This document shows, in pieces, positions 11,885 through 33,064 of a DNA stretch of 47,708 nt. The stretch spans positions 1 through 47,708 of IMG/VR virus record IMGVR_UViG_3300035688_000216; one strand, written 5' to 3'. Below the pieces are notes generated by a model, which ran no database searches, was not told the DNA's origin, and worked only from the letters and a program-made list of their open reading frames with translations. Both the position numbers and the translations under genes were made by a program. How positions within the stretch are numbered: position 1 is the first letter of the stretch; every line of letters starts with the position of its first letter. Source of the DNA: a virus.

Positions 11885-11922
11885 AGATTAAAAAGTGGGG
11901 GGCATCCCCGCGGACGCCCCCC
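11885..11922 (-). terminator. Rho-independent terminator between tail tube and chaperone genes
   Basis: On the minus strand GGGGGGC and GCCCCCC form a strong stem (11922-11897), followed by AC and then TTTTT (11894-11890). It lies in the 92-base gap after the tail tube gene and ends about 20 bases before the chaperone start. Partial termination here would give more tail tube mRNA than chaperone and tape measure mRNA. Confidence 0.75.
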
Positions 11923-11959: not shown

Positions 11960-12361
11960 TCAGCTTACGGAAGGTGTGAGTGCACCCCTGCCCTTGAGTG
12001 ATCCGGAAATGGTCAACGCTTCTTCGGCCGGACCTTCGTAGTCCATCGACTCCAGAACAGCACTGCCTATGAAGGTCGCGCCGTCGGGCATCGTGATGAT
12101 AATGTCCAAGTCAGCTGGGATGCCGGTGAGGAAGTGGGCCTGGAGAGCACGCTTGGCAACATCATTATAGATGTACATGCCGTTAAAATCGATAGACCAT
12201 TCCTTGCGGCCCTGGAGGAATTCGCCCCAATTGTCTGAGTCCTTCGATGTTACGTCAATCGAGGCCCCCGCGAAATGCAGGGCAAAGGACTGGTTCTCCG
12301 CCATCAGGTCGCCCTCTATAGAGAGGGTCATGAGTTTGCCGGTTACAGCGGCTGTAGTCAT
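11960..12361 (-). CDS. Major tail tube protein (133 aa)
   Basis: The start at 12361 has AAGGAGTTTATT upstream. It reads MTTAAVTGKLMTLSIEGDLM, then GASIDVTSKDSDNWGEFLQG and GMYIYNDVAKRALQAHFLTG. It closes with a beta-rich stretch ending in LTISGSLKGRGALTPS. The DVTSKDSDNW..L.GRK.W pattern is typical of the TP901-1 / gp17-like tail tube family, whose copies stack into the siphovirus tail tube. Length fits the family. A strong terminator follows, suited to a gene needed in many copies. Confidence 0.9.
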   Translation of the reverse strand: MTTAAVTGKLMTLSIEGDLMAENQSFALHFAGASIDVTSKDSDNWGEFLQGRKEWSIDFNGMYIYNDVAKRALQAHFLTGIPADLDIIITMPDGATFIGSAVLESMDYEGPAEEALTISGSLKGRGALTPSVS

Positions 12362-12483: not shown

Positions 12484-12909
12484 TCAACTCGGAGCCATAA
12501 TGAATCGGAATCTCATAACGCCATGCCTTACGAGATGCGTCGGCACGGAATCATCAATGAAGAGTTCCGACATATCGAGGAATGCGATGAACGGCGCAAA
12601 ATATCCGAGCACGGCAAGGTCCGTTCCGAGGACGGCCTGGACGATATTGTCCATATACTGGGAGGCTTGCTTATCGCCTTTGGTCGCGCTCCAGACATGG
12701 ACGGTGATGGTATTGTCTTCAACCTGCGTGTCTTTTGTCGTGAATGATATGGACCGGATGCCTATCGGAGAACCGAAGGATACATACGGCATGACGGCAC
12801 TTTTGGGAACGTAGTCATAGATCGTATAAGTGCTGGTTAAAGCATGGGTCGTGAGCCGGGTATAGATCGACTGCATTAACGGCTGGAATCCGAGCCTTCG
12901 TGTTGCCAT
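12484..12909 (-). CDS. Tail terminator / tail completion protein, DUF3168-like (141 aa)
   Basis: Begins MATRRLGFQPLMQSIYTRLT, then YTIYDYVPKSAVMPYVSFG and a DNTITVHVWSATKGDKQASQ stretch. This is the pattern of DUF3168 proteins (..ALx..L...vyd.vP....PYv..g......tt....h...i.vWs...G..ea..i), which cap the tail tube. AGGAGTTCGAT precedes the ATG. It sits where it should be relative to the tail tube gene. However, it is separated from its usual neighbour, the gp10-like protein at 22592, by the 9.2-kb glycan island. Confidence 0.85.
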   Translation of the reverse strand: MATRRLGFQPLMQSIYTRLTTHALTSTYTIYDYVPKSAVMPYVSFGSPIGIRSISFTTKDTQVEDNTITVHVWSATKGDKQASQYMDNIVQAVLGTDLAVLGYFAPFIAFLDMSELFIDDSVPTHLVRHGVMRFRFIMAPS

Positions 12910-12918
12910 ATCGAACTC

Positions 12919-15504
12919 CTAAAACTGGTTGACCACCGATCCCAGTCCATGCTTTTGTAAAAAATATGCCATCGGAGTTGTCCTACGGTACTGGTTATAT
13001 TCCGTATCCGGGCTTGTGATGAGATGGAATGCCTCGGCATCAAGACAGATGGCCGCCCTCCATGACGTTTTCTTTAACTCCAGAAAAAAGTCTATGTGTT
13101 CATATTCGATTTTTATCCGGTTATCCCACATCACGTCCTTGAAGATTTTGCATTTGGCAAGGAAGATGTTCGGAACCTGATCGGCCAAGACATACTTAAT
13201 GTCGCCGGCCGTCGCATGGACTTCGCGGGGAGCCGGGATTCTGGCGAGTAGTTTGCCCCGCATTTCAAATCGTAGCCCCTTGGCATAGTTCTCTCCGGCA
13301 AAGAATGCACCTTTTTCATATTTAAGCGTCGCTGCAACTAACCCGATATGCTCATCCGAATCGAGCACTTCTTTCATGTGTTTGATCGATTCAGGGTCCC
13401 TGATGACAACGTCGTCATCCGATATTAGAACATAATCTTCCTTGGCCTGTTTTATGATCGCATTCCGTCCTAGGGAAATCCCCGAATTGAATGGAAGGGA
13501 GATGATCACGTGTCCGCTCTTTTTGAGTTTCGCATAGGCCAGCGCTCTCTCGTCATCCTGCGGTCCATCGTCGGCAATGTAGAAGCGATAGGGTAGGCCG
13601 GACTTGGCGAGCGTTGCCCGATACGTTTCGAGCGTCTTGAATAATGTCTCACTCCTCATGAACGTCTTGATCCCGACGGCAAGTTTATTTTCGCGGGCGG
13701 CAATAACGGCCTTCATGTCATTATCAATTATCCGTTGCCGGATTTCGGTCGTCGAAATACCCTGCGTATAAGGTAGATAAACCAATTTGCCGCCGTGCTT
13801 CCGGACATATGCCTCGCCGGGACATTGGTCCCAATCATCGCCGTGAACGAGATAATGAGGTTGAATGCCTGCCGCCTCAAGGTCGGCCGTCGAATTCCTG
13901 TCGTTCTGCATAATGGTTTTATCGACGCATTTCAAGGCTTCGACAATCCTCCGCCTAGCCTCGAATGGGATGATCGGCTGGGACTTGTAATCCGATGCGG
14001 CCTTATCGGTCAGAACGCCGACAATGAGTTTCGTCCCAAGCGCCTTGGCCCGTTCAAGGATAGCCAGGTGTCCCTCATGGAAGAGGTCCCAGACGCCGCC
14101 GATGAATACGGCTTTCGCGCCCCGCTTGAAATAGTTTCGGTCAATGGCCCGGCAGTCATTCCAATATCGATAGGCTCGTTGCCGTTGCCGCCAGTTCGAT
14201 CCATAGCGCTCCAGAAGATATCGTTCCGGCGGGTTCGGGAGGAAGCATGGAAGGCCATGGAACGTGACCGGCTTCAGGTCTTTGAAGAGATGGGCCGAGA
14301 AAACATGCGGGAGAAATTCCAAATCGACGTCACGCCCGCCTTTCTTATTCGGCCCGAATGCGCCGTGCCACCAAAAATCGCCGTCATCATAAAAAAAGAA
14401 AAGATCGACCTTGACGCCGTTCTTCCGGAAACTTAATTCCGTTTTTTTCTTGCCGTAAATCCACGCCCGCAAGAACTCAAACCCGGCCGCTATCATGTCG
14501 GCCTGGAGTTTATCCCAGAGTGCCGGTTCCTTCGGGTGAAGTCCGATGTCGATATCCGGATCATGTGGGATGAACCCCTGTTCCCGTACCGCCCCGAGGC
14601 ACGTCCCGGCCTCCAGCCACCAGATACACTTGTTGGCGGTTAGGACATCTATGATGAGTCCGAGGTTATCACCCTTGAGATCAACCGGTTTCCCATCTCC
14701 CATCGCTTCGTAAGAAAGGGGCGATTCCGGATTGTAATCGCTGTTGACGTATTTGAGTCCCCATTTCTCGCCGAATAATTTCCACCCCACCGGACGGCAT
14801 CGGTATTTCTTGTAATCGTCCGTTCCTTCCGGAAGGTGTTGCAACGATACGTCTCGGGTATAGGCGACACGCCATTTCATTTTTTGCTGGAGCCCCAGGA
14901 AGAAATCCTCGTGTTCCAGCGCCGTCTTAAATGCCTTATCCCATGGGTTATCGAACCATACCTGGCGACGCATCAGGAAGATATTGAGGATAAGATCGAA
15001 ACTCATGGTAAACTGAACGCCGGATGCCGTCTTCCGCCATACCGGAGAATCAATTTTCTCTATGAAATGCGTCGTGCCTTCACTATAAATCTTGCCTTCA
15101 TAGTGCTGCTCTCGGCCATCCTTGAGGAACATTAGGCAGCCACAGAGTCCGGCCGTTGGTTCATCGTCTAGGACCGCCCGGAGTTTTTCAACTTTCGTCT
15201 CGTCGGTGAATACCGTGTCGTCTTCGATAATCATCAGGTATTCGTATTCCGGCGGGATAAGCTTCAGCGTTTCGTTCCGGACGCCGCTCACGCCGAGATC
15301 GAACGGAAGTTGGAAATGCGTGCATTCGGCAGCCTTCAGAAATTCCGTCTTTTTATCATCCGGATTCCCGTTGTCGCCCACGAAGATCGGGATATCGGGA
15401 TAAAACTTCCTGATGCTTTCGACGCAACGCATAAGGAGTGCGTCCCGCATGAACGTCGTTATGATGATCGCGGTTCGATCAAGTCCCGGTGTCGGTTCCG
15501 TCAT
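12919..15504 (-). CDS. Four-domain fusion GT2 - LicD - cytidylyltransferase - GT2 (861 aa)
   Basis: Domain 1 (residues 10-225) is a GT2-like fold beginning TAIIITTFMRDALLMRCVES, with an acidic metal motif IIEDDTVF (92-99). Domain 2 (about 281-450) looks like LicD: WWLEAGTCLGAVREQGFIPH, then DPDIDIGLH (315-323) and KVDLFFFYDDGDF. Domain 3 (465-592) is a nucleotidyltransferase of the TagD/RfaE type: GGVWDLFHEGHLAILERAKA (HEGH 476-479) and ISTTEIRQR (583-591). Domain 4 (606-830) is another GT2-like domain with ISDDDVV (694-700). The cytidylyltransferase part could activate a polyol phosphate or phosphocholine-like group as a CDP derivative, and the LicD part could transfer it. The natural substrate is unknown. 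It is the last gene of the island. Confidence 0.85.
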   Translation of the reverse strand: MTEPTPGLDRTAIIITTFMRDALLMRCVESIRKFYPDIPIFVGDNGNPDDKKTEFLKAAECTHFQLPFDLGVSGVRNETLKLIPPEYEYLMIIEDDTVFTDETKVEKLRAVLDDEPTAGLCGCLMFLKDGREQHYEGKIYSEGTTHFIEKIDSPVWRKTASGVQFTMSFDLILNIFLMRRQVWFDNPWDKAFKTALEHEDFFLGLQQKMKWRVAYTRDVSLQHLPEGTDDYKKYRCRPVGWKLFGEKWGLKYVNSDYNPESPLSYEAMGDGKPVDLKGDNLGLIIDVLTANKCIWWLEAGTCLGAVREQGFIPHDPDIDIGLHPKEPALWDKLQADMIAAGFEFLRAWIYGKKKTELSFRKNGVKVDLFFFYDDGDFWWHGAFGPNKKGGRDVDLEFLPHVFSAHLFKDLKPVTFHGLPCFLPNPPERYLLERYGSNWRQRQRAYRYWNDCRAIDRNYFKRGAKAVFIGGVWDLFHEGHLAILERAKALGTKLIVGVLTDKAASDYKSQPIIPFEARRRIVEALKCVDKTIMQNDRNSTADLEAAGIQPHYLVHGDDWDQCPGEAYVRKHGGKLVYLPYTQGISTTEIRQRIIDNDMKAVIAARENKLAVGIKTFMRSETLFKTLETYRATLAKSGLPYRFYIADDGPQDDERALAYAKLKKSGHVIISLPFNSGISLGRNAIIKQAKEDYVLISDDDVVIRDPESIKHMKEVLDSDEHIGLVAATLKYEKGAFFAGENYAKGLRFEMRGKLLARIPAPREVHATAGDIKYVLADQVPNIFLAKCKIFKDVMWDNRIKIEYEHIDFFLELKKTSWRAAICLDAEAFHLITSPDTEYNQYRRTTPMAYFLQKHGLGSVVNQF

Positions 15505-16231
15505 TCCCTAATATCTCCCTCACGAGTGGTTGTGCAAAAACCCGCACTTTATTCTCTATGTGTTCCCGGAGTGTATAGCCATCCAGGTTCGGCTGCGGCT
15601 TATCCGTGTTTTCGCGGAATCTTGTCCCATACCAATGATGGTATAGGGTCGCTTTATCCCCGATCCATATTTCATCTCCGATACAATCGGGATAAACCTT
15701 CGTTCCCTTTTCAAGCCGATTGACTTTATATCCGAGGTCAAGTATCTGCCAATAAATACGTTGCGCCGTATCCGTGGAGCGCGGGTCCAGTTCCGGCCGA
15801 TAGGCGAAGGATAGGTAGTGCTCACGGATAAACCGCCGTTCAAAGAAAAACAGGGGCGGGTGGAGCGGCTTGTGCGCCGGACCGACACAACCGATGAGTC
15901 GCGTCAATCGGTCGGCTCCATAGAGCGCGATGAGATCGGTGTCCCACCCAACACGCTGAACATGGGTATCGATATCAAGGATGCAGACATACCACCCGAC
16001 GGCCGCATCGACCAGTTGATCCATCGCCCGGCCGTGTCCGAGATTTCCTTGATTCTCGATAAGCCGGACATCGGGTTGTTGCCTCAACCAATCGAGGTTC
16101 CGCTTAAGCGATCCGTTATCGGCAATGATAATTTCATACGTTTTCGGAGTCGTGAACTTCCGGACGCTTTTCACGAGAAGTTCGGCCCATTCCGGGGAAT
16201 CGACATTGGCGGCGGCGATGGTTAGGCGCAT
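15479..16231 (-). CDS. GT2-type glycosyltransferase (250 aa)
   Basis: Starts MRLTIAAANVDSPEWAELLV and continues TYEIIIADNGSLKRNLDWLR and NLGHGRAMDQLVDAAVG, the nucleotide-sugar binding half of GT-A/GT2 enzymes. The acidic metal motif is ILDIDTHV (DxD). The C-terminal half (LFFFERRFIREHYLSF, GDEIWIGDKATLYHHWYG) would shape the acceptor site. It overlaps both neighbours, so it is translated as part of the island operon. Donor and acceptor are unknown. Confidence 0.85.
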   Translation of the reverse strand: MRLTIAAANVDSPEWAELLVKSVRKFTTPKTYEIIIADNGSLKRNLDWLRQQPDVRLIENQGNLGHGRAMDQLVDAAVGWYVCILDIDTHVQRVGWDTDLIALYGADRLTRLIGCVGPAHKPLHPPLFFFERRFIREHYLSFAYRPELDPRSTDTAQRIYWQILDLGYKVNRLEKGTKVYPDCIGDEIWIGDKATLYHHWYGTRFRENTDKPQPNLDGYTLREHIENKVRVFAQPLVREILGNDGTDTGT

Positions 16232-17043
16232 CGAAGCCTTGCCAACTCTTCCCGAATCCGAACCCTGAGCATTCTGCCCTTTTTCGTTTCTGCATTTTCC
16301 GGTTCAAGCCACGCTTGGGCGTGCCCCCAATGATGAAACGATGACAAGATATGGGGCGTCAATTCCCGATGGATATATCCTTTAGGGTTATCATGCCGCA
16401 TCTTGCACCAAAGGACGCAGCCGGGATCGAAGATTACCTTGTCGGGTTTGAAATCTACTGCATATCTGCCCCATGTCGCCTGCGTGCACAGGAAAAGTGG
16501 ATTATGCTCGGGCGGATAAAGATGGGAGCATTCTGTCCGCCACGGCTCATCTTCGCGCCGCAATTCGTCAATCGACCAATCGACAGCCATGCCGTCCCGA
16601 TAGGCCGTCATGTTTAGGAGCGCGAACCATGGCAAGAATTGTCCCGGCATATATCCCCGGCTACAATATCCGAACTTGTCTTTTTCGATTGCAACGATGA
16701 GGACATGGGGATCGGCGGCCAATCCCAGGAGGCCCGACAGCCAGCCGGGGCGGAGCACCTGGATGTCATTATCCATGAGGACGGCGAAGTCGGCGTCCGA
16801 ACCGTTGACGAGGGCGTTCAGCCCGACCCCGTGGCCCCGATGTGCATTCCCTAGAAGGATACGGTTGATCAGGCCAACATCTTGCGCCCGCGTGAGATAG
16901 ATGAGTTCGCCCGGATTCGCTGAGGCGTCATCATAGACAATGACGCGGTGCGGCTCCGGCGTGAGCCGGGCGATGCTCTCGATGCACAACTCCAAGGCTT
17001 CGCGGCCATCAAAATTCGGGATTAGAATATCAACCGGCTTCAT
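16222..17043 (-). CDS. GT2-type glycosyltransferase (273 aa)
   Basis: I chose ATG 17043, which overlaps the previous stop as ATGA, over an in-frame alternative at 17052. The protein starts MKPVDILIPNFDGREALELC, with a HRVIVYDDASANPGELIYL stretch and a GHGVGLNALVNGSDADFAVL stretch. The metal motif is LMDNDIQV (DND). This is the standard order of a GT2 GT-A domain. It shares the IPNFDG, VYDDAS and DxDIQ(V/I)L(R)xGWL layout with the glycosyltransferases at 17642 and 18929, so the cluster probably grew by duplication. Confidence 0.85.
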   Translation of the reverse strand: MKPVDILIPNFDGREALELCIESIARLTPEPHRVIVYDDASANPGELIYLTRAQDVGLINRILLGNAHRGHGVGLNALVNGSDADFAVLMDNDIQVLRPGWLSGLLGLAADPHVLIVAIEKDKFGYCSRGYMPGQFLPWFALLNMTAYRDGMAVDWSIDELRREDEPWRTECSHLYPPEHNPLFLCTQATWGRYAVDFKPDKVIFDPGCVLWCKMRHDNPKGYIHRELTPHILSSFHHWGHAQAWLEPENAETKKGRMLRVRIREELARLRCA

Positions 17044-17642
17044 TTGTCGCAATCAATAAACGGGTCGATAATTCTAAACCCCTCGGAATATTTCGGATCC
17101 TTAAACCCGATCAATGTCACTTCTCCAAATCCTGCCTGCCATCCCGTCAATACCTTCGGGGAATGGCCCAGAAACACCGAGTGCTCATAAAGGAATTGGT
17201 GAATATATAATCCGAGCGATTCCAGGTGATCAAATACCACCTTGGACTTGAGACTGTGGAATTGGCCGTCGGGTGCAACAGCCAGTTCGTGTGGATTATT
17301 AAGCGCCGATCCCCACGAGATTACCAACATCCCGTCGCCCCGCATGAGGTCAACCATTTTGGCGAGGCTCTGTTTCCAGTACGGATCATGCTCCAACATC
17401 GAGGCCGAGGCGACCGTGTTAAAGCATGACGCCGGATATTGAAACTCATGCGTCAAGCTGACAACATCAACATCTTTTCCAGGACGCCAATCGACACCGA
17501 TATAGTTTTTACAATGGAAATAATCGCGGATGGACCCGTTGATATTGGCTGCCCCGAACTCGATCACAACGGCCGGGTCGTTAAAATAGCACGGATATCG
17601 CTGACTCGTCTGCCTCCAGAAGTGCCGATTGAGGGGGTGCAT
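17040..17642 (-). CDS. Class I SAM-dependent methyltransferase (200 aa)
   Basis: Contains VVIEFGAANINGSIRDY as a modified motif I, an acidic end of strand 2 (YIGVDWRPGKDVDVVSL), and NTVASASMLEHDPYWKQSL, the common Methyltransf_11 motif before strand 4. It then has DLMRGDGMLVISWGSA. The glycine-rich loop is weaker than canonical (EFGAANINGS). Flanked by two glycosyltransferases with start/stop overlap at both ends, it is likely a sugar or glycan methyltransferase rather than a nucleic acid one. Confidence 0.75.
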   Translation of the reverse strand: MHPLNRHFWRQTSQRYPCYFNDPAVVIEFGAANINGSIRDYFHCKNYIGVDWRPGKDVDVVSLTHEFQYPASCFNTVASASMLEHDPYWKQSLAKMVDLMRGDGMLVISWGSALNNPHELAVAPDGQFHSLKSKVVFDHLESLGLYIHQFLYEHSVFLGHSPKVLTGWQAGFGEVTLIGFKDPKYSEGFRIIDPFIDCDK

Positions 17643-18379
17643 TATGAGGCATCCTTCCGCAACTTAATCAACTCCGCTTGGACTGCTTCGTATTTCTGCT
17701 TTCTGACATCAAAGTTCGGACCGCTCATCGGCATGGAAAGAACGGAGATGTGACAGGGGTGATGGTAATACGCGCCCGGCCCGTTCGGGAATGACGAAAT
17801 CCCCTGCGGGAACGGGGCAAGAATGCGCCCCTGATCGAGTATGTTTTTATAAATCTGATGACCGGCAGGATATAACGCCATCGGCGTTGCGTCCCAACTA
17901 ATAAATTCCGGTTTCGTCGTATAGTCCCATTCGGCGGGTTTAATGAACGGATACTGCGCCATATCCAGCATAAAAAACCACGAGGCGATAGATACGTTAT
18001 CGGGGAATACCTCCATATCGGTGATCATCGCTGCACCCGTTGCCTCTTGATGAGCAATCATCTTCTCAAGCCATCCGGAGCGCAGGATCTGGATATCGCA
18101 ATCCAGAATCATGGCAAGATCGGTTGTCACGGCATTGAGCATCGTCCTGATGCCGCATCCCCATCCGCCGTGCGGGTTGCCTTCGATGAACTTGATCCAG
18201 CCTTTCTCTTGGGCGGCCCGGAGATATGTGAGGTCATCGCCGTAGTGTACGGGGTCCGAGGCGTCGTCATAGACAATCATTTCATACGGGCATTTCGTAA
18301 ACCTCCGGACGGACTCTATGGCCAGGGCGACAGTATCGCCGGACTGGAAATTTGTCATGCAGATAGTGACGCTTTTCAA
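17642..18379 (-). CDS. GT2-type glycosyltransferase (245 aa)
   Basis: Starts MKSVTICMTNFQSGDTVALA, then CPYEMIVYDDASDPVHYGDD and GWGCGIRTMLNAVTTDLAMI. The metal motif is ILDCDIQIL (DCD). Family features match GT2. It has the same VYDDAS and DxDIQ signature as the gene at 16222-17043, pointing to duplication within the island. The role would be adding one sugar in the putative phage-encoded glycan. Its own acceptor is unknown. Confidence 0.85.
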   Translation of the reverse strand: MKSVTICMTNFQSGDTVALAIESVRRFTKCPYEMIVYDDASDPVHYGDDLTYLRAAQEKGWIKFIEGNPHGGWGCGIRTMLNAVTTDLAMILDCDIQILRSGWLEKMIAHQEATGAAMITDMEVFPDNVSIASWFFMLDMAQYPFIKPAEWDYTTKPEFISWDATPMALYPAGHQIYKNILDQGRILAPFPQGISSFPNGPGAYYHHPCHISVLSMPMSGPNFDVRKQKYEAVQAELIKLRKDAS

Positions 18380-18389
18380 CCCTCTCTCC

Positions 18390-18932
18390 TCATGGGCTCA
18401 CTATAATTCCGATCCCGGTCCGGGGTTTGCTCCGGCTATCGATAGAGATAAAGACTTTTTCCCCGGATACGGTAGTAATCAATTCGCCCCACAATCGGTG
18501 CGGCCCGGCCAAGCCCGTGATATCGTGGAGGGCGACAATTCCGCTCGCGAGCGGTGCATATATCTCATAATCCCGTTTAACGGATTGATAGTCATGCGCT
18601 CCGTCTATGAACAGAAGATCGATGGTCTGTCCGTTGAGCATAGTCCGGAGTCGGTCAAACGTTTCGGGTGCATGACTATCGCCGAGAATGTCCGGCGCCC
18701 CCGACTTGTTTTGTATGTCGATTCCGATATGCCGAGCGTTCAAATAGTATTCGTAAAACGGCTTCTGCGCATTCGCCCAAATCCCGATTTCGACAACTAG
18801 CGGACGTTCAATCTTATGTCGCTCAAAATAGGAGCGAACGATGTCCATATAGGCAAACCATTCCGGGCGGCCCTGCATGGGCAACGCGAAAGATTCCTCA
18901 AAGGATTCATAATCTTGAACGCAATACATCAT
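18390..18932 (-). CDS. Class I methyltransferase, CmcI-like (180 aa)
   Basis: Motif order: LVVEIGIWANAQKPFYEYYL, then ARHIGIDIQNKSGAPDILGD, then IDLLFIDGAHDYQSVKRDYE and IVALHDITG. The LFIDGAHDYxSVxxDyexyxPL stretch is the hallmark of the CmcI / Methyltransf_24-like group. It is a clear paralogue of 27697-28290, which shares GDSHAPETF/GNTHAPETL and LLFIDGAHDY/ILFIDATHTY. It overlaps the upstream glycosyltransferase, so a role in modifying a sugar or glycan intermediate is likely. The substrate is not known. Confidence 0.75.
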   Translation of the reverse strand: MMYCVQDYESFEESFALPMQGRPEWFAYMDIVRSYFERHKIERPLVVEIGIWANAQKPFYEYYLNARHIGIDIQNKSGAPDILGDSHAPETFDRLRTMLNGQTIDLLFIDGAHDYQSVKRDYEIYAPLASGIVALHDITGLAGPHRLWGELITTVSGEKVFISIDSRSKPRTGIGIIVSP

Positions 18933-19786
18933 GAGGTTATACCATCTGTCCTCAGTTCCGCGAGTCGCTTATCGACCTCGGCGAGTACGCTCTTGACATG
19001 GGGGTGATCGGGGCGATGCGAATTCCGGTCTATCCCACCCCTCCATATTATGTGCGTATTCCAATAATTATCGGGTAGGGGTATCATCCTTAGTTCCGCC
19101 GGATTATCGAAATGGAGCCGTTCCCACAGCGTCCATCCTGTGTCGGCAAACACAAGCGGGGGCGTGCGCTCGGGCGTGCGAGGAGGCGTAAGTCCGGCGA
19201 ATATCTCCGGCCGTTCGAACTCCTCAAATCCGATCTGCCGAAGTTCCCACTTATGGTCCGCGAAATGCCGCCGATAGAGCGGCATATTCAAGAGCATGAT
19301 ATTCGGCCAGTAGGTCGGCGTTATCCAACTCACGTCAAAATGGTTCCCCCCGTCGCGCTCGCGGGCCACGCCCAAATCGTGCTCCGGGTCTTTTATCAAG
19401 TCCGTGAGCGTATCCAGCCAATCGGGTCGGATGATCTCGGAATTGGAATTGAGGAGGAGCGCATAGTCCGCCGTCGATGCCGCGCATAACAGAGTCAGAT
19501 TTTCGCCGTGTCCGTAGTGCGTGCCGGGATCCGTCTTTTCGATGAGTTGGATGTGCCCCATCCCGGCCATCGCCCGTAGGTATTCGCGCCGGTTGCCGTC
19601 ATCGCCCGTGATTGAGATGGGCTGAGGATCACGCGCCCAGTTCATCCCCGATAGGCTCGTGACGGAACTGTTATCGCAAACGATGATCTTATATCCCGTC
19701 TCCGGCGACGTACGCTTTATGATCGACTCGACAGTCAGGCAAATCGAGTTCCAAGTGAAGCGGTTTGGAATAAGGATGTCGATCAT
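18929..19786 (-). CDS. GT2-like glycosyltransferase, divergent metal motif (285 aa)
   Basis: Starts MIDILIPNRFTWNSICLTVE, then GYKIIVCDNSSVTSLSG and HYGHGENLTLLCAASTADYA. The place of the usual DxD is taken by LLNSNSEII, so the metal ligands are changed (NSN). Enzymes with such changes can be metal-independent or inactive. It overlaps the DNA methyltransferase start upstream and the methyltransferase downstream. GT2-like fold is well supported; activity is less certain. Confidence 0.75.
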   Translation of the reverse strand: MIDILIPNRFTWNSICLTVESIIKRTSPETGYKIIVCDNSSVTSLSGMNWARDPQPISITGDDGNRREYLRAMAGMGHIQLIEKTDPGTHYGHGENLTLLCAASTADYALLLNSNSEIIRPDWLDTLTDLIKDPEHDLGVARERDGGNHFDVSWITPTYWPNIMLLNMPLYRRHFADHKWELRQIGFEEFERPEIFAGLTPPRTPERTPPLVFADTGWTLWERLHFDNPAELRMIPLPDNYWNTHIIWRGGIDRNSHRPDHPHVKSVLAEVDKRLAELRTDGITS

Positions 19787-20436
19787 GCCCTTGCTGTCTC
19801 CATCGGAATTACAAGTTGCGCTTGTGCTTCCTTGATTCGCCTTTCTGCTATAGCAAAATATCCGGGGTCAATCTCAATGCCGATGAAATCGCGCCCGGTC
19901 TGGACGCAGGCAACGCCTGTCGTGCCGGAACCCATAAAAGGATCAAGGACAGTCGAACTGGGTCTTGCAAATTGGGCAACAACTTTTTCGTAAACATCAA
20001 CCTGCTTCATGGTCGGATGATTGAATTTGGGCAAGCCCGCCTTGCGAACTGTTTTATATAAATTCCAACCACGCTTCACTATTTTGGGGTTGCCTTTCCC
20101 CAATAGGAATTTGCTTTGAAATACATCAAATCCGACTCGGCAAAACGCCATGGTGTTTTCCTGGGAGACAGCCAGCAAATCGAGAAATTCCCAATCCCCA
20201 ATAAAATCCGGGAGCCTTAGAATTTTCTGTCTTGCCCAGTCGCTAATCAAAAAAGAATCGTCCTTTGCAATGCGATAGAGTTCGGAGAAAACGTCTTTCA
20301 ATAAGGTAGTGTTTGTAAATTCATCATTTGCAAATGCCTTGCCGACCCCATACGGCGGGTCCGTTATCACCGTGTCAACGGACTTGTTGGGGAGCGTTTT
20401 CATTACTTCCAGACAATCGCCGAGGATGAGTTTCAT
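19783..20436 (-). CDS. DNA methyltransferase, beta-class N4/N6 type (217 aa)
   Basis: The catalytic motif DPPYGVG lies at residues 26-32 and the SAM-binding motif LDPFMGSGTTGVA at about 164-176. This order (catalytic first) defines beta-class amino-methyltransferases. The start MKLILGDCLEVMKTLPNKSV is canonical. It sits between an acetyltransferase and a glycosyltransferase, with four-base overlaps at both ends. No restriction endonuclease is nearby, so it is an orphan, perhaps protecting phage DNA from host restriction. The target sequence cannot be read from the gene. Confidence 0.92.
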   Translation of the reverse strand: MKLILGDCLEVMKTLPNKSVDTVITDPPYGVGKAFANDEFTNTTLLKDVFSELYRIAKDDSFLISDWARQKILRLPDFIGDWEFLDLLAVSQENTMAFCRVGFDVFQSKFLLGKGNPKIVKRGWNLYKTVRKAGLPKFNHPTMKQVDVYEKVVAQFARPSSTVLDPFMGSGTTGVACVQTGRDFIGIEIDPGYFAIAERRIKEAQAQLVIPMETARA

Positions 20437-20984
20437 TGGCCCCTATATTCATTCTCAAGGATGCTCATGGCCAGATAATCCACGAATCGCCCGTTGCGGA
20501 AGATAGCCTCTCGGTGCTTCCCTTCGAGCTTGAACCCGGCGTTGAAATAGAGTTTCTTGCCGATCTCATTAGTATCGAGAACTAAGAGCCAGGTGCGATG
20601 CATTCCCATGTAATCAAAGCAATATTTGAGAAGTGCCTTATAAATCCGCGTCCCATATCCTTGCCCGCGCATCGCCGGGACAACATCGGCCCCGATGCGG
20701 ACGGAACGGTTGGGGCGGTCTATCTCATCCATCCGAATGATGCCGACGAAATCGCCCTCAAAATAGATAGGATAGTGCTCATCCTGTCGCTCCATGAATA
20801 CGGCGAAGTATTCTCGGGAAGGATCACCGTCCAGCCGCGAGAACCATTCCGCCTGCGCCTCGGCTGAGATATGCCCGATTGAGGTAAGCTGGCTCCAGGT
20901 CGATGGATCATTTCGCAGGGTCCGGATCGCCTCAAGGTCCTTCTCCTCTACGGGCCGAAAGACGATGCCGTTACCCGCGAACAT
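20433..20984 (-). CDS. GNAT-family N-acetyltransferase (183 aa)
   Basis: Begins MFAGNGIVFRPVEEKDLEAI, then a DFVGIIRMDEIDRPNRSVRI stretch. The acetyl-CoA loop is PAMRGQGYGTRIYKALLKYC (R/Q-x-x-G-x-G/A motif), then TWLLVLDTNEIGKKLYFNAG and LEGKHREAIFRNGRFVD. This is the layout of PseH/FdtC/RimJ-like GNAT proteins. It is encoded directly after a DegT aminotransferase, so N-acetylation of the amino sugar made by that enzyme is a reasonable inference. Confidence 0.85.
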   Translation of the reverse strand: MFAGNGIVFRPVEEKDLEAIRTLRNDPSTWSQLTSIGHISAEAQAEWFSRLDGDPSREYFAVFMERQDEHYPIYFEGDFVGIIRMDEIDRPNRSVRIGADVVPAMRGQGYGTRIYKALLKYCFDYMGMHRTWLLVLDTNEIGKKLYFNAGFKLEGKHREAIFRNGRFVDYLAMSILENEYRGQ

Positions 20985-22104
20985 GATCCCATGCCTCTAT
21001 CGCATCCATTATCGTTTCCCTTTCATCCTGCCCGATCCACCATCCTACCGGGATACACACCTTATGCGAATCGAACTCATCTACACCCGGGAGCGAGCCC
21101 CCGCGTGCGCCCGCGAAGCAGGTATGTTTATCGTTTCGGGCGTGAACCTGCGATACCTGAACTCCGCCCTTTGTCATCCAATCCATGAAGGAAGGCCTGT
21201 CATCGACCAGGATCGTATAGAGCCAATAGGATGATATCCGGTTCGGCTTGTATGCGAGCGGGCGGGCGTGCCTTATGCCCCGTGCCTCAAACTCCGAGCC
21301 ATACCATGCGGCGTTCAGCCGATGTACCGCCAGCGTTTCGGGGAGCGTCTTGAGGCCCTCGATGCCGATGGTTGCGGCGATATCATTCATGTGGAATTTA
21401 TATCCGAATTCGGCGATGTTATCTTCGCATCGGAAGTCCGTGCGCGGCGTATCGCGGTCTATGCCGTACCAACGGATAAGTCGGCCCCGGCGATAATGGA
21501 GTTCAGCCATCGCCGCGCTCCCGCCGGCCAGCGTCAATGCCCCGCCGTCCACCGTCGTCAGATGCTTAATCGCCTGGAACGAGAAGCATGTAAACATGCT
21601 GATGCTCCCGATCCGTGCGCCCTTATATGAGGCCCCGATGGCGTGGCAGGCGTCCTCAATAAGATAGATGCCATTTGCTTCGGCTATATCCATGAGCCTT
21701 TCGAGATCGCATGGGTAACCGCCCCAATCGACGCAGATGATAGCCCGCGTCTTGGGCGTTATCTTGCGTTCCACATCATCCGGATCGATATTGGCATCAT
21801 GCGGATTGATGTCGGCCCAAACGATATCCGCTCCCCGCTCCAGGATGGGCATATTCGAGGCCGTGCAGGTCATGGGCGTGCAGATGACCTCATGCCCGGG
21901 TCCGACGCCCGCAAGCCGGGCCGCGAGATGGATTGCCGATGTTCCGCTATTCGTGGTCAGGACTCGGTTGTTCTGGAACTCGTCGGCCAGAAGGCGCTCG
22001 AATATATCGACCTTCTGTCCCTGCCCGATGTAACCCGAATGAAGTACGTCAAGGAGTGGGCCGTCAATGAACGGCGGCATTCTAACCTTGAAAAGCGTTA
22101 TCAA
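20971..22104 (-). CDS. DegT/DnrJ/EryC1 sugar aminotransferase (377 aa)
   Basis: PLP-dependent enzyme. The phosphate-binding segment is LTTNSGTSAIHLAARLAGV (GTSA 54-57), the PLP ring contact is IEDACHAIGASYKG (D151), and the Schiff-base lysine lies in SFQAIKHLTTVDGG (K180). Length is typical of the family, which aminates nucleotide-linked keto-sugars. No dehydratase, epimerase or dehydrogenase is present to make the keto-sugar, so the host must supply it. It is the first gene of the island and overlaps the gp10-like gene by four bases, so the island reads as part of the structural operon. Confidence 0.92.
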   Translation of the reverse strand: MITLFKVRMPPFIDGPLLDVLHSGYIGQGQKVDIFERLLADEFQNNRVLTTNSGTSAIHLAARLAGVGPGHEVICTPMTCTASNMPILERGADIVWADINPHDANIDPDDVERKITPKTRAIICVDWGGYPCDLERLMDIAEANGIYLIEDACHAIGASYKGARIGSISMFTCFSFQAIKHLTTVDGGALTLAGGSAAMAELHYRRGRLIRWYGIDRDTPRTDFRCEDNIAEFGYKFHMNDIAATIGIEGLKTLPETLAVHRLNAAWYGSEFEARGIRHARPLAYKPNRISSYWLYTILVDDRPSFMDWMTKGGVQVSQVHARNDKHTCFAGARGGSLPGVDEFDSHKVCIPVGWWIGQDERETIMDAIEAWDHVRG

Positions 22105-22592
22105 ACTTTTTCATCCTTTCCCATGATCTTGCCGATCTCCGCGCCGACTTCGCCTTCGTGCTGGAGATAGGCTTTAGTAAGATAAAATTTGCCTTCAACA
22201 ATCGTTCCAACCCCTAGTCCCATTCCCGCGAATGAATCCGCGCCTTGCTTCGATCCTGCCACGTGACCATATTCGACATGTATGGCATATTTCACGTTGG
22301 TTCCCACGACAACGACGAGCCCTTGCGGCCCCTGCGGTTCACCAACGCCATCGTCGGCCTGCGCCTTGCCGCCCGTTCGTCCCCGAGACTTTCCGCTTCC
22401 GGACCAATTAGTTGAAAGAGAAGAACGGAGACGACCCGTTTTCACGGGACAAAAAATCTTAGCATCTCTTTCGACCTCGAATCCGATCTTCTTTAGCGTA
22501 TCCTCACAAGCCTGGCGCTTGATGATTTGCCACTTCTTGAGGCTCGCCAGCGTCTTCTCGATGCCCTCGACCTTGACGTTTATGGTGCTCAT
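22101..22592 (-). CDS. HK97 gp10-like head-tail / tail completion protein (163 aa)
   Basis: Begins MSTINVKVEGIEKTLASLKK, then AKIFCPVKTGRLRSSLST and VVVGTNVKYAIHVEYGH. The pattern A...P..TG.Lr.S......... G....YA..vE.G is diagnostic of the HK97 gp10-like family. It comes after the connector and head-closure genes and would normally be followed by the DUF3168 tail terminator, which here lies 9 kb further on. Confidence 0.9.
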   Translation of the reverse strand: MSTINVKVEGIEKTLASLKKWQIIKRQACEDTLKKIGFEVERDAKIFCPVKTGRLRSSLSTNWSGSGKSRGRTGGKAQADDGVGEPQGPQGLVVVVGTNVKYAIHVEYGHVAGSKQGADSFAGMGLGVGTIVEGKFYLTKAYLQHEGEVGAEIGKIMGKDEKV

Positions 22593-25618: not shown

Positions 25619-25619
25619 G

Positions 25620-27155: not shown

Positions 27156-27164
27156 GTTGTCCTC

Positions 27165-27695: not shown

Positions 27696-27696
27696 T

Positions 27697-28290
27697 TTAT
27701 TTCCCCATCCCAAACCCGTCGGTTATGTCTTTAATGTTATCCCGACCCCGCTTTACGATTATCCCGATCCCCAATTCGCACCATCCGTTCGCCCATGCCC
27801 CGATAGAAATAAATGAGATATCGGGATTCTCTTTTTCACTCGCCTGGATATCCGTCCATAGTTGAGCTATTTCCTTTTCGTGGCTTATATCGTGGAATGC
27901 AATTATATCCGTCGCCAATGGGCCATAGACCAGGTAATCCGCAAGGGCGTCCACATAGGTGTGTGTGGCATCGATGAACAGAATGTTTATCTTCCTGTCG
28001 CCGAGCAACGCCTTGAGTTTCCTTAGCGTTTCGGGCGCGTGCGTATTGCCGAGAATGTCGGGTTTTGAACACTTGTCGCTCACGTCTATCCCGACATGGG
28101 TCGCATCAAGGAACCGCTCATAGTGCGCCTTCTGCCGCCCATGTTGTGCACCCAGTTCTACGATGACCGGATTTGTAAGACAATGTTTTACGCAGTACGC
28201 CTGCACAAATTGCAGGTATGCCTTCCACTCTCCGAAAATCTGGTTCGGTCCCGTGAACGAAAGAACCTCAGCCTCCGTAACCTTAATCAC
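27697..28290 (-). CDS. Class I methyltransferase, CmcI-like (197 aa)
   Basis: Motifs: PVIVELGAQHGRQKAHYERF, then ATHVGIDVSDKCSKPDILGN, then INILFIDATHTYVDALADYL and IIAFHDISHE. It is paralogous to 18390-18932, sharing GIDxxxKxxxPDILGxxHAPET. In both genes the product ends with a GIGIIV segment. It overlaps the glycosyltransferase start at 28287, so the two enzymes form a pair set between two fibre genes. A likely role is methylation of a sugar on a fibre or host glycan. Confidence 0.75.
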   Translation of the reverse strand: MIKVTEAEVLSFTGPNQIFGEWKAYLQFVQAYCVKHCLTNPVIVELGAQHGRQKAHYERFLDATHVGIDVSDKCSKPDILGNTHAPETLRKLKALLGDRKINILFIDATHTYVDALADYLVYGPLATDIIAFHDISHEKEIAQLWTDIQASEKENPDISFISIGAWANGWCELGIGIIVKRGRDNIKDITDGFGMGK

Positions 28291-29327
28291 TCTTTTTTCT
28301 CCAGGAGTTTCGCGTACAAATCAACGTACTTCTTGACTTCCTTCTCCCTATCAAAGTTGTCTTTGGCGTATTGAAGCGTCTGTTGCCTGAGAACGCTTCC
28401 CTCTTTGGTCAATGCCTTCCAGCACTTCTCTACCTGATCGGCAATAGAATCCAGGTCCCAAATCTTTGCATGATATGACGTATAGTCGCCCGCATAACTA
28501 ATGACGGGGACGCCCATCGCCATCATCTCCATTGTGACGCGACTGGCAATCCCGCTGATGTTATTATTGAACCCAATGTCCGCACCCTTCATAAAGGGAC
28601 GCAGGTTGTTATTCTCAAGCTGAATGTTCTCACAGAGGTTTTCCAAATTCCGTTCCTTGCTCCGGCAGAACATGTTCCGATACGTCGATATCGGCTCCAG
28701 CGACAGGCTGAACAGGTTCAGTCGCGCCTCCGGTATCCGCTTAACAATCCTCGGCATCGCCCAAATAATATGGGACGGCAACTTCTCCATCCTCAGAACG
28801 TCGCATGACATAATTGCCGGATGATTGATGTATTTCCAGGTCATCTCTTCGCCCTGATACCGCTCCAGATCAATCGAGTTTGGGATATAGTGAATCCTGC
28901 CATGCTCATCGTAGAGTTCCAGGATATCAAACTCATGTTTATTGAGGACAACCGTCGCATCATATTTCCAGAGGATGTTAATGTGCAGGTTAAACGATTC
29001 GTCCTTCCGATTCGACACCCATTCCTTTAAGAGCATGTGTTCGTTCGGCCCGTGCAGGACGGCGACGAACTTCGGCCCCTTCAGGTTCCTGATTTCGCCG
29101 GGAATGGCGGCGTGTAAAACGTGGATGTCGGCTTTCTTGGCCGCCTCCCAAGAAATGGGGGAGAGCCAGCCATCGTCGGTGGCGACCCTCCCCTCTTTTT
29201 GTTTGTCGTTTGGTTCGGCAAGGTCGGATTGAAGCCCCGCTTTCCGCTCATATTTGATTTGGTCTTTGACAGACTCGTACATTCCCGATTGTCTTGGACA
29301 CCATGATGTCCAATGGACTACTTGCAT
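28287..29327 (-). CDS. GT-B-type glycosyltransferase (346 aa)
   Basis: Begins MQVVHWTSWCPRQSGMYESV. The N-terminal Rossmann-like half includes ADIHVLHAAIPGEIRNLKGP and FVAVLHGPNEHM. The linker YDATVVLNKHEFDILE and IHYIPNSIDLERYQGE is the classic GT4/GT1 hinge (..vipNgiD...f). The C-terminal half has GADIGFNNNISGIASRVTME and MMAMGVPVISYAGDYTSYHA, the donor-binding E-x-x-A-x-G-x-P-V segment. Retaining glycosyltransferase. It is not of the GT2 type found in the main island. Confidence 0.85.
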   Translation of the reverse strand: MQVVHWTSWCPRQSGMYESVKDQIKYERKAGLQSDLAEPNDKQKEGRVATDDGWLSPISWEAAKKADIHVLHAAIPGEIRNLKGPKFVAVLHGPNEHMLLKEWVSNRKDESFNLHINILWKYDATVVLNKHEFDILELYDEHGRIHYIPNSIDLERYQGEEMTWKYINHPAIMSCDVLRMEKLPSHIIWAMPRIVKRIPEARLNLFSLSLEPISTYRNMFCRSKERNLENLCENIQLENNNLRPFMKGADIGFNNNISGIASRVTMEMMAMGVPVISYAGDYTSYHAKIWDLDSIADQVEKCWKALTKEGSVLRQQTLQYAKDNFDREKEVKKYVDLYAKLLEKKE

Positions 29328-29351
29328 ATCCGACCCTCCTTTGACGATAAA

Positions 29352-29855
29352 TTACAGTACTGTGCTGTACATGAACTTGAGCAGGCCCGCGCTCGTCCGC
29401 GTGATGTAGTGAACGGCGGCAGATGAACCCGTGTCATTGGTCCGAATGACGGTCGAGGCGAGAGACGTGGCTTTACTGAGGGCCGCCGTCGCTTGCGAAA
29501 TAGCGTTACTTACCGCATCGGACTGAGCCGCAACGACACTACTGGCCTTTACGGCCTTGCTCACCGCATTGCTCGCCGCACTTAGGGCATCGCTCACGTT
29601 AGATTGCAAGCCCGCCGCGATACTACTGGCCGAATTCGCATGGGTCAATGCATGAGACGCCGCACTCAAGGCGTCCGAAACCCCGGAAGCAAAACCATCC
29701 CAAGTCGCAGACCGAGCCGCAACCGCACTCACGGCGGCAGAGGCATCCAGGTCCCATACGGCAGACCCGGCGCCGATTTTAGACATGGCCTTTGAGGCCG
29801 CATCGCTTGCCGTAGCGATATCCGCAGGCTTAAAAGTCAAACTTGCATCAGCCAT
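29352..29855 (-). CDS. Ala/Ser-repeat fibre protein with TFKPADIAT N-terminus (167 aa)
   Basis: The start is ATG 29855 with AAGGAG upstream, overlapping the previous stop by eight bases. After MADASLTFKPADIATASDAA the protein is a run of helical or coiled units such as SKAMSKIGAGSAVWD, SDALSAASHALTHANSASS and SDALSAASNAVSKAVKASSV. It ends with a short beta tail (VHYITRTSAGLLKFMYSTVL). It looks like a trimeric coiled-coil fibre segment. Paralogue of 27165-27695 at the N-terminus. Confidence 0.65.
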   Translation of the reverse strand: MADASLTFKPADIATASDAASKAMSKIGAGSAVWDLDASAAVSAVAARSATWDGFASGVSDALSAASHALTHANSASSIAAGLQSNVSDALSAASNAVSKAVKASSVVAAQSDAVSNAISQATAALSKATSLASTVIRTNDTGSSAAVHYITRTSAGLLKFMYSTVL

Positions 29856-30438
29856 TTGATTTCTCCTTCGCAGATTGGGGCACCGTCTCGTCGTTTCTAC
29901 AAACGGCGATAAGCGGGTTTTCATATTGGCCGGCCAGCGGCTCAAGCCTATAATTCCTTATACTAACCGAGACGAAATGCCGCTTCAGGATGCCCTCCAA
30001 TTCCTTCGGGGCATATTCCCTGACGTGGCTTTCGCCTTTCCGATATCGGCTTAACCGATTCGGCGTGGAGAGGATAAGGGTTCCATCCTTAGTCATCATT
30101 TTCTTGACATTCTCAAGGGCCGATTTCTCGTCCTTGATATGCTCAAGAACATCTATCATCACGATATAATTGAATTCCTGCCCGGATATCCCCTTAACGA
30201 TATCACCGTACTCATAGTGCAGATTCCGGAAGGGGAAGACGGCCTTCGCAAACTGGATTGCATTCTCGTCGATCTCATAGCCATAGACTTCATTGGCATT
30301 GACATTCAAGAGATGCGTTCCGAAGCCGGTCCCGAATCCTATGTCGGCAACCTTGTTCCGGACGACCTTCTTGATGACATCATATATATCGAATTGCGGA
30401 CTAAGGACGTACTTAAACCGATTCCAAATCAGGTACAC
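29848..30438 (-). CDS. Class I SAM-dependent methyltransferase (196 aa)
   Basis: Clear motifs: NKVADIGFGTGFGTHLLNVN (motif I DxGxGxGxG), NEVYGYEIDENAIQFAKAVF (motif II with acidic residue), FNYIVMIDVLEHIKDEKSAL (motif before strand 4, VLEH) and KDGTLILSTPNR. This matches Methyltransf_11/23-type small-molecule enzymes such as UbiG. It stands next to the fibre/glycosyltransferase cluster. The substrate is unknown; a glycan role is inferred from context. Confidence 0.85.
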   Translation of the reverse strand: MYLIWNRFKYVLSPQFDIYDVIKKVVRNKVADIGFGTGFGTHLLNVNANEVYGYEIDENAIQFAKAVFPFRNLHYEYGDIVKGISGQEFNYIVMIDVLEHIKDEKSALENVKKMMTKDGTLILSTPNRLSRYRKGESHVREYAPKELEGILKRHFVSVSIRNYRLEPLAGQYENPLIAVCRNDETVPQSAKEKSNG

Positions 30439-32025: not shown

Positions 32026-33051
32026 CTAGCTGGACGTGGTCAAAACCACGAAGGCCGAGACCGTCTCGCCCCCGAGCCTTGGCGTGACGGGAGCATCCAT
32101 TATAGGCTGTCCATCTACACGCAATACCACTCGCCAGAATGTCTCATCGGTCAGGAAGCCGTAGCTCCCTGGGACTTCCCGAGACGCGGAAATCTCTAAA
32201 CTCCGATTGCCGATTACATAGTGGTTCCAATCGGCAAGAATAATGTCGCCCGTCGTACCGGCCGCCGAACACTTCTCCGTCGGGATGATCGGACACCCCA
32301 TACAGGTCATGTCTGCCAAGTCGATAATTCCATAAGCATTCGACCCGGCCGTCGCATCGTTCGCCCAGTTCGCAAGGACTGTAGGATTGATGAGCCAAAC
32401 GGCTCGCTTCCAGGAATCGGGAAGCAGTCGCCCTGCCATTTGTGCGATGTCAGCCGGGACCGGAGTTCCGGGCCAAGCCGTGCGTGCGTGCGCGATAGTC
32501 GCCGGGGCGTTCATGATGCCGAGCGGTTGCCCGGTGCCCGTGCCCCAAACGTAGTAATAGTCTTCTTCGAATGCCAGCGCCTGTCCGAACGAGAGCTGCA
32601 TGAATTCTCCGAAATTGGGATAGTCGGCTACGAGTTCATTCGATGCAAATAGACTGCCGACGAGTTTATGCACCGTTAGTTCGAGTTCTCCGAGGGCCGG
32701 TTTGGATATGACAAGTGACTTGTCGCCGCCCTCGTATTTCCACGTGAATGTGATCCCGCCGAAATAGGAAGAGACTCGGGACGATTCCACGAGTCTCCGA
32801 ATTTTCAGCGAATCGCTGGACATCTGAAGCACTTTTGCCCGAGGCCGGACGATGCTGTTCTCAAGGGCGATATTGTAAATCCCCGCAGCCCATTCCTCGG
32901 GGCATAGGAAGCCCCCTTGAGCATCGCTCCCCTCGGCCATGTGCCCGGCCGTCTTCAGCCGGGAGTCCCGAATGCCTTCGACACAAGCCCGGCGGACACG
33001 TGACAAGTACTCTCCGAAACACTTAAACCCGCCTTTTGGATCTTTTTCCAT
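32026..33051 (-). CDS. Second HK97-fold capsid protein, no delta domain (341 aa)
   Basis: AGGGGCTGAAT precedes ATG 33051. It starts MEKDPKGGFKCFGEYLSRVR, then GFLCPEEWAAGIYNIALENS and RPRAKVLQMSSDSLKIRRLV. It matches the mature part of the upstream capsid gene point by point: GGFL(V/C)PEE, PRA...M.(T/S)DSLKI, FGGI, P.(F/L)G.LELT.HKL.G, SNEL.AD. The long N-terminal delta/scaffold domain is absent. It may form pentons, a minor capsomer or a separate structural role. Confidence 0.85.
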   Translation of the reverse strand: MEKDPKGGFKCFGEYLSRVRRACVEGIRDSRLKTAGHMAEGSDAQGGFLCPEEWAAGIYNIALENSIVRPRAKVLQMSSDSLKIRRLVESSRVSSYFGGITFTWKYEGGDKSLVISKPALGELELTVHKLVGSLFASNELVADYPNFGEFMQLSFGQALAFEEDYYYVWGTGTGQPLGIMNAPATIAHARTAWPGTPVPADIAQMAGRLLPDSWKRAVWLINPTVLANWANDATAGSNAYGIIDLADMTCMGCPIIPTEKCSAAGTTGDIILADWNHYVIGNRSLEISASREVPGSYGFLTDETFWRVVLRVDGQPIMDAPVTPRLGGETVSAFVVLTTSS

Positions 33052-33064
33052 ATTCAGCCCCTAA

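Follow-up and report, generated by a model that had tools for sequence, protein, structure and literature searches.

A variable glycan-building island in the structural operon of an environmental phage lineage and its proposed role in virion glycosylation

The viral record IMGVR_UViG_3300035688_000216 of IMG/VR, of which positions 1 to 47,708 (47,708 nucleotides) constitute the window analyzed here, carries a block of ten glycan-related genes between the gene for an HK97-gp10-like neck protein and that for a DUF3168 tail terminator (Table 1). These ten minus-strand open reading frames (ORFs), confirmed at positions 12919-22104, are transcribed in the order DegT, GNAT, DNA methyltransferase, GTd, MTb, GTc, MTa, GTb, GTa and Fus861, and lie in the head-tail junction region of a tailed-phage structural operon that, on the remaining minus strand, comprises terminase, portal, MuF, two HK97-fold major capsid paralogues (MCP1 and MCP2), connectors, tail tube and tape measure. 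The first-pass annotation of this DNA, made from the sequence alone, had described ten same-strand non-structural genes separated by four-base overlaps or very short gaps, and the ORFs, the Pfam/NCBIfam matches and the PHROG matches agree with it, the junctions ranging from -26 (overlap) to +10 (gap) bases. That the flanking genes are usually neighbors is also true, because the gp10-like and terminator genes are directly adjacent in HK97, Che8, Dubu, AGM1 and Bxb1. There is no excess of terminator- or promoter-like sites within the island; the strongest terminator-like hairpin (11922-11897) lies outside it, beyond the major tail gene, and the GC content of the island (0.50-0.58) is unremarkable compared with the remaining window. 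Gene content and near-coupling of the genes thus support the earlier proposal of a phage-encoded, co-transcribed island for a glycan carrying amino, acetyl, methyl and phospho modifications.

Table 1. Features of the island, its flanks and the other genes discussed in the text.
Feature	Coordinates	Strand	Evidence and remarks
DegT, DegT/PseC-like nucleoside diphosphate (NDP)-sugar 4-aminotransferase	20971..22104	-	PF01041 4e-75
GNAT, PseH-like N-acetyltransferase	20433..20984	-	PF13302 (Acetyltransf_3) 2e-15
Beta-class DNA methyltransferase	19783..20436	-	PF01555 (N6_N4_Mtase) 1.5e-25; window-type only
GTd, GT-A-fold glycosyltransferase	18929..19786	-	PF00535 marginal, E 0.0014; core gene, usually beside GNAT
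MTb, Methyltransf_24 small-molecule methyltransferase	18390..18932	-	PF13578 2.4e-7; variable cassette
GTc, GT2 glycosyltransferase	17642..18379	-	PF00535 2.7e-11; variable cassette
MTa, S-adenosylmethionine-dependent methyltransferase	17040..17642	-	phrog_32762 6e-23, weak in Pfam; variable cassette
GTb, GT2 glycosyltransferase	16222..17052	-	PF00535 6.5e-12; relatives have at least one divergent copy
GTa, GT2 glycosyltransferase	15479..16231	-	PF00535 4e-11; core gene
Fus861, tandem GT2 domains flanking a LicD-cytidylyltransferase module	12919..15504	-	PF00535, PF04991, PF01467
Neck1 / HK97-gp10-like tail completion protein	22101..22592	-	phrog_5 E 2.8e-16; upstream island boundary
DUF3168 tail terminator	12484..12909	-	phrog_176 1e-19; downstream island boundary
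Major tail (tube) protein	11960..12361	-	phrog_1407 3.6e-23; ends ...TPSVS-COOH; predicted acceptor
MCP1, major capsid protein paralogue 1	33065..34288	-	phrog_10 6e-51; ends ...AATS-COOH; predicted acceptor
MCP2, major capsid protein paralogue 2	32026..33051	-	phrog_10 5e-34; ends ...TTSS-COOH; predicted acceptor
Terminator-like hairpin	11897..11922	-	11-pair stem then T-run, 3' of major tail protein gene
Second glyco cluster	27697..30438	-	Methyltransf_24 27697-28290, GT-B/GT4 28287-29327, Methyltransf_31 29848-30438 (Pfam)

The DegT product passes the PF01041 cut-off (253.6 bits versus 19.8), and its Lys180, within SFQxIK, is invariant in its relatives, as expected of the catalytic lysine of the DegT/DnrJ/EryC1/StrS family; its best matches in PDB are 4zwv/4xau and CalS13. 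The best NCBIfam models are PseC for DegT and PseH (TIGR03585) for GNAT, and both scores fall under the equivalog cut-offs (204.6 bits versus 423.5, and 76 bits versus 93.1), so that a PseC/PseH pathway in the strict sense is not recognized. The pair suggests synthesis of an NDP-4-acetamido-4,6-dideoxyhexose from a precursor supplied by the host: DegT would transaminate a host-made NDP-4-keto-6-deoxyhexose, and GNAT would then acetylate it to the NDP-4-acetamido-sugar. DegT enzymes of this family occur widely in viral contigs, one scan having confirmed 375, often amid unannotated ORFs of 200-350 amino acids (L050-L123).

The AlphaFold2 model of GTd (pLDDT 84.6) has a confident GT-A fold, and its Foldseek matches to GT-A enzymes include ppGalNAc-T and TarP (E 1e-7 to 1e-8, TM about 0.4). 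Fus861, a protein of 861 amino acids, consists of a GT2 domain (residues 11-225), a LicD domain (290-323 and on), a CTP_transf_like domain (468-591) and a second GT2 domain (610-741). Its LicD domain passes the PF04991 cut-off (52.2 bits versus 22.6), matches fukutin-related protein (FKRP), and keeps a D-x-D-I-D motif in those Fus homologues that bear the module, in agreement with the DxDxD motif of LicD proteins. By sequence, the cytidylyltransferase domain matches Fom1 CyTase and the ethanolamine-phosphate (PECT) and glycerol-3-phosphate (G3P-CT) cytidylyltransferases, and its NCBIfam match, RfaE domain II, is under the cut-off. The first GT2 domain is similar to B4GALNT1 in both sequence and fold; Foldseek with the AlphaFold2 model, which is of low confidence overall, gave B4GALNT1 (6e-15) and human ECT (2e-8). 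The pTM of this model is 0.39 and its LicD and cytidylyltransferase region is of low confidence, so that the reading of Fus861 is limited to the glycosyltransferase domains and sequence evidence. The likely product of the module is a cytidine diphosphate (CDP)-phospho-alcohol that is passed to the glycan: the cytidylyltransferase would activate a phospho-alcohol of the ethanolamine-, choline- or glycerol-phosphate class, and the LicD domain would transfer it to the glycan during its building by the two flanking GT2 domains. A phosphate ester is likelier than a phosphonate, because no Ppm enzyme was seen.

Relatives of the window were sought among 2.9 million viral contigs with the capsid, neck, terminator, fusion and DegT sequences as queries, and the site is occupied in every relative with a contig that spans it, about ten distinct viruses. 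Two contigs (L025, L026) are essentially identical to the window; in the diverged relatives, homologous genes are 35-97% identical, yet they have the same neighbors and come from different samples. The arrangement neck - DegT - (GNAT) - glycosyltransferases/methyltransferases - GTa - Fus - terminator - tail tube recurs in L031, L035-L038, L054, L057/L058 and L075, with partial copies in L009, L029 and L030. The most distant of the contigs (G001, L148) has neither DegT nor GNAT but keeps, next to the terminator, GTa, a sulfotransferase-like gene and the complete fusion; in L017, a putative rhamnosyltransferase gene follows the neck gene. Comparison of related contigs for the gp10-like/DUF3168 pair, as the first-pass annotation had proposed, detected no empty site in lineage members that span it, and empty sites were seen only in unrelated phages; in Dagobah, whose major capsid protein is 44% identical, neck and terminator are not recognizable by homology, which makes this phage unusable as an empty-site control. 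Because diverged relatives share the arrangement and no empty site was found, the lineage has, to judge from these contigs, possessed the island for a long time and did not acquire it recently; the description "inserted" holds only relative to phages in which the flanking genes touch. In many other phages the genes on either side of the block are direct neighbors, as would be expected if it were an assembly chimera or host DNA recently inserted into a single phage; host DNA joined by mistake had been named in advance as the outcome fatal to the proposal. The probability of a chimera or recent insertion is now negligible, and this explanation can be regarded as refuted, because many independent contigs, obtained from different samples and diverged in sequence (35-100% identity), have the block at one and the same site. 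The conservation of site and order in independent contigs indicates that the island has been selected.

The ends of the island (DegT, GNAT and GTd; GTa and Fus) are mostly stable and the middle is shuffled, the GTb-/GTc-like transferases and the methyltransferases varying in number and order among relatives. In almost every relative the island starts with DegT, which occurs as alleles of ~55% and ~92-100% identity, and sulfotransferase-like genes are present in the islands of L054 and L148. The fusion gene itself is modular. In L038, GTa is fused in frame to the Fus861 homologue as one protein of 1098 amino acids; in L054 and L057, the LicD-cytidylyltransferase module is cleanly missing at the exact junction of the two similar tandem GT2 domains; and the homologues of L054, L057 and L075 have an extra N-terminal GT2 domain. 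We infer from this variation a resemblance to a polysaccharide locus under diversifying selection.

The DNA methyltransferase, which had been counted as part of the glycan block, is peculiar to the window type: it does not occur in the islands of L031, L035-L038, L054, L057 and L075, and was therefore rejected as a member of the pathway. Elsewhere in the window, at 40841-42588, another DNA methyltransferase gene is split into a first ORF (41815-42588), in which the region of the DPPY motif is followed by a LAGLIDADG homing-endonuclease domain, and a second ORF (40841-41860) that continues the methyltransferase; relative L005 is without the LAGLIDADG domain. The presence of DNA methyltransferases in the window, together with weak TAGT matches of the L054/L057 homologues, might suggest that the transferases add sugars to phage DNA as a hypermodification that evades restriction, and phage glycosyltransferases of that kind are known (Pyle 2024, according to its citation in PMC12619734). 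Such a role is nevertheless very improbable, because LicD, DegT, GNAT and the late structural location do not fit it, the DNA methyltransferase is not conserved, and no homologue of thymidylate synthase/hydroxymethylase (PF00303), one of the enzymes by which DNA hypermodification would be recognized, was found in seven lineage contigs with a positive control. For TET/JBP (PF12851), no match was obtained in the lineage contigs, but the positive control was silent too.

The candidate acceptors emerged from a comparison of protein C-termini, an unplanned lead that was not set beforehand. MCP1, MCP2 and the tail tube protein of the window end in TS, SS and SVS, respectively, and all three thus have the C-terminal serine that is seen on capsid and tail tube proteins of glycosyltransferase-bearing reference phages. 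Among non-redundant homologues, serine is the last residue in 13/13 MCP2, 10/10 tail tube and 13/15 MCP1 proteins, against a background of 7.6% of long ORFs. Most positions next to the terminal serine vary, and in MCP2 the last residue is the sole invariant one among the last ten. Tail terminator homologues are Ser-terminal in six of 11 cases, and the neck, portal, MuF and adaptor proteins are not Ser-terminal. None of 20 capsid homologues from actinobacterial phages and prophages ends in serine, their last residues being Ala, Arg, Pro or Thr, and the difference from the lineage capsids has a Fisher p of 7e-8, a value that ignores phylogeny.

The two capsid genes (32026-34288) are adjacent, encode diverged HK97-fold paralogues and are kept across the lineage, and a GT-B gene lies between them in L010, L012 and L054. 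Beside them, the small protein h136 (31592-32002) has a nearly invariant C-terminus, RYKQATLPA (12-14/14 homologues). The sole hint of a host, a weak one, is a 6.6-kb contig (L125) in a Candidatus Aminicenantes metagenome-assembled genome (MAG) that carries lineage MCP1 (56%), MCP2 and h136; the other matches in a scan of genomes for capsid homologues are actinobacterial prophages or distant MAG contigs. Naming a host from L125 was rejected, the short contig being too weak a basis.

Cultured phages offer a comparison, because the capsid and tail-tube subunits of mycobacteriophages are reported to be glycosylated at their C-termini (Freeman 2023, as cited in PMC12619734). In Che8, the capsid protein ends in KTGS and the tail tube protein in SDGS, and nearly all other virion proteins checked are not Ser-terminal. 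Further phages were picked through the Che8 gp110 transferase before their termini were seen, except prophiGD57-2, which was picked through its capsid and whose transferases were seen later. The capsid/tail tube ends of these transferase-bearing phages are VGS/GDS in Dylan, AGS/PAS in Fryberger, QGS/GGS in Poise, DPS/AGS in Neville, SGS/SGS in mEp390 and AGS/AGS in prophiGD57-2, and the capsid of Mareelih ends in VGS. Those of phages without a recognized transferase are VTA/PGV in Dubu, TAV/AGV in AGM1, PAA/ISV in TM4 and SVG/DVV in Bxb1, and the capsid of Dagobah ends in VGA. Ser-terminal capsids were thus found in eight of eight phages with glycosyltransferases and in one, HK97, of six without a recognized one (p 0.003, for a small, hand-picked sample and ignoring phylogeny). 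In the Gordonia phage Mareelih (L167:5456-8494), the capsid protein and the next two proteins end in VGS, TGS and SGS near a glycosyltransferase pair, and all three Gly-Ser-ending proteins are possibly glycan acceptors.

Gene content, conserved place, modularity, the lack of export genes in the contigs available and the terminal-serine signature all support the reading that this is a late-expressed O-glycosylation island which probably glycosylates the virion, namely both capsid paralogues and the tail tube, at the C-terminal serine. The first-pass annotation had left the target as either the virion or the host surface; the terminal serine points to the former, and within it to the capsid and tail-tube C-termini, and the latter is disfavored, as no export or initiating enzyme was found. 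In the seven lineage contigs, searches for flippase (PF13440), GtrA (PF04138) and initiating phosphoglycosyltransferase (PF02397) gave no match, with positive controls in each case, and no hydrophobic stretch resembling a membrane helix occurs in the island proteins (maximum 19-residue hydropathy 1.63). Neither the GtrA flippase and membrane-spanning Gtr of a gtrABC cassette nor the flippase and initiating phosphoglycosyltransferase of a Wzx/Wzy locus are therefore in evidence there, and cytosolic protein glycosylation is favored by the failure to find export, initiating and base-modifying genes and by the lack of an obvious membrane helix. Remodeling of a host surface glycan late in infection, for receptor masking, superinfection exclusion or as a release aid, is unlikely for the same reason, and also because the serine signature sits on virion proteins and genes expressed as late as those of the virion would have little time to alter the surface; sets of DegT, GNAT, GT2 and LicD genes are, however, typical of O-antigen, capsule and teichoic-acid loci, polymorphism suits surface antigens as well, and such a role has been proposed for pelagimyophage glycosyltransferases (PMC7029224).

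If the virion is the target, the island enzymes, being encoded in one operon with the virion proteins, would be produced late, at the same time as these. The soluble GT2-type transferases would build an oligosaccharide on virion proteins in the cytosol, starting from the C-terminal serine of MCP1, MCP2 and the tail tube, and O-methyltransferases would cap the glycan. Swaps of glycosyltransferase, methyltransferase, sulfotransferase and DegT genes would then give each phage a different coat, which may shield it against host or environmental binding, alter surface adsorption or stabilize the particle.

Several points weigh against glycosylation at the capsid and tail-tube C-termini. HK97, which has no known glycosyltransferases, ends these proteins in SGS/TIS, so that a terminal serine alone is not diagnostic. 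An island-bearing relative (L004/L031) ends MCP1 in TSA, distant DegT-bearing contigs (L082/L088/L110) end the capsid in KGG, and the serine counts within the lineage are not independent, because its members share ancestry. The lack of glycosyltransferases in the actinobacterial homologues and in the transferase-less reference phages was judged on less than whole genomes, and the absence of export genes is provisional, because the contigs are fragments. The island transferases gave no blastp or island hidden Markov model match at E 0.01 to Che8 gp108-110 or Dylan gp33-35, with which they share only Pfam folds.

The glycan might also be placed on other virion parts, such as the neck, the baseplate or the Ser/Thr-rich fibre-like proteins encoded at 24821-30438. 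These genes surround a second cluster of glycosyltransferase and methyltransferase genes, of which the GT-B/GT4 matches the phrog_2170 glycosyltransferase (3.6e-6), and one of their products, fib511, is 27% Ser+Thr. This alternative appears less likely still than a host-surface role, because relatives that keep the island have unrelated genes in place of the fibre-like ones, and the tail-tube gene, the neighbor of the island past the terminator, is constant and Ser-terminal. The interval 24821-30438, between capsid and connector genes, carries different genes in relatives, including GT-B genes and, in L010, a sulfotransferase.

A fuller proposition concerns the whole lineage: its polymorphic island, which resembles a capsule locus, would itself supply an aminosugar and a CDP-activated phospho-substituent and would build a glycan coat, different in each strain, on the terminal serines of MCP1, MCP2 and the tail tube. 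A capsid and a tube that both end in serine would then be a signature for suspecting virion glycosylation across unrelated phages. We advance this proposition tentatively, with somewhat more doubt than belief. As far as the literature found shows, phage virion glycosylation has been demonstrated in mycobacteriophages only; if the proposition is true, environmental phages of another lineage build far more complex glycan coats, using sugar-nucleotide and phospho-alcohol steps dedicated to the purpose and shuffling the genes as antigen genes are shuffled. The terminal-serine rule makes the question testable in the cultured phages Poise, Fryberger, Neville and mEp390 and in this lineage, and Fus861 offers a single-polypeptide LicD-cytidylyltransferase for enzyme study.

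Phage-encoded virion glycosylation is already known, as is a glycosyltransferase cassette within a structural operon, and the island shares with the Che8/Corndog type a cassette of phage glycosyltransferases with an O-methyltransferase. In Che8, gp108-gp110 are likewise phage-encoded GT2 and Methyltransf_24 enzymes accompanied by a Ser-terminal capsid and tube, and gp108 joins a GT2 domain to a Methyltransf_24 domain, the methyltransferase family of MTb and MTc of this lineage. The Che8 cassette, however, is small and located at the far end of the genome, and no island separates its adjacent neck and terminator genes. Dylan (Corndogvirus) has an O-methyltransferase and three glycosyltransferases (genes 32-35) inside its structural operon and a Ser-terminal capsid and tail tube, but its four-gene cassette lies at another site, between portal and prohead protease, and is without DegT, GNAT and LicD-cytidylyltransferase. 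The flagellin glycosylation islands of Pseudomonas (viosamine type) and the PseC/PseH pathways, in which a DegT aminotransferase, an acetyltransferase, glycosyltransferases and methyltransferases encoded beside the flagellin gene serve cytosolic O-glycosylation, place the same enzyme classes beside the structural gene of a polymeric surface protein; they differ in being bacterial and having flagellin as the acceptor, and the DegT and GNAT of the island score below the PseC/PseH cut-offs. The gtrABC and Wzx/Wzy O-antigen loci also modify glycans by phage- or cell-encoded GT2 enzymes, but the island has no detected flippase, GtrA or initiating transferase. In the tailoring of phospho- and phosphonoglycans, a CDP- or cytidine monophosphate-activated small phospho- or phosphono-alcohol is transferred to the glycan by a LicD-like enzyme (PMC6697681); the CTP_transf_like domain of Fus861 is related to the Fom1 CyTase and the ethanolamine-phosphate cytidylyltransferase, but here a single phage polypeptide holds both this domain and LicD, with a GT2 domain on either side of the pair. 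To judge from its genes, the island is not placed in the Che8 family by common ancestry and is an independent version of the mycobacteriophage systems, new in its predicted aminosugar and phospho-alcohol branches, its capsule-locus-like polymorphism, its different site and its larger gene set.

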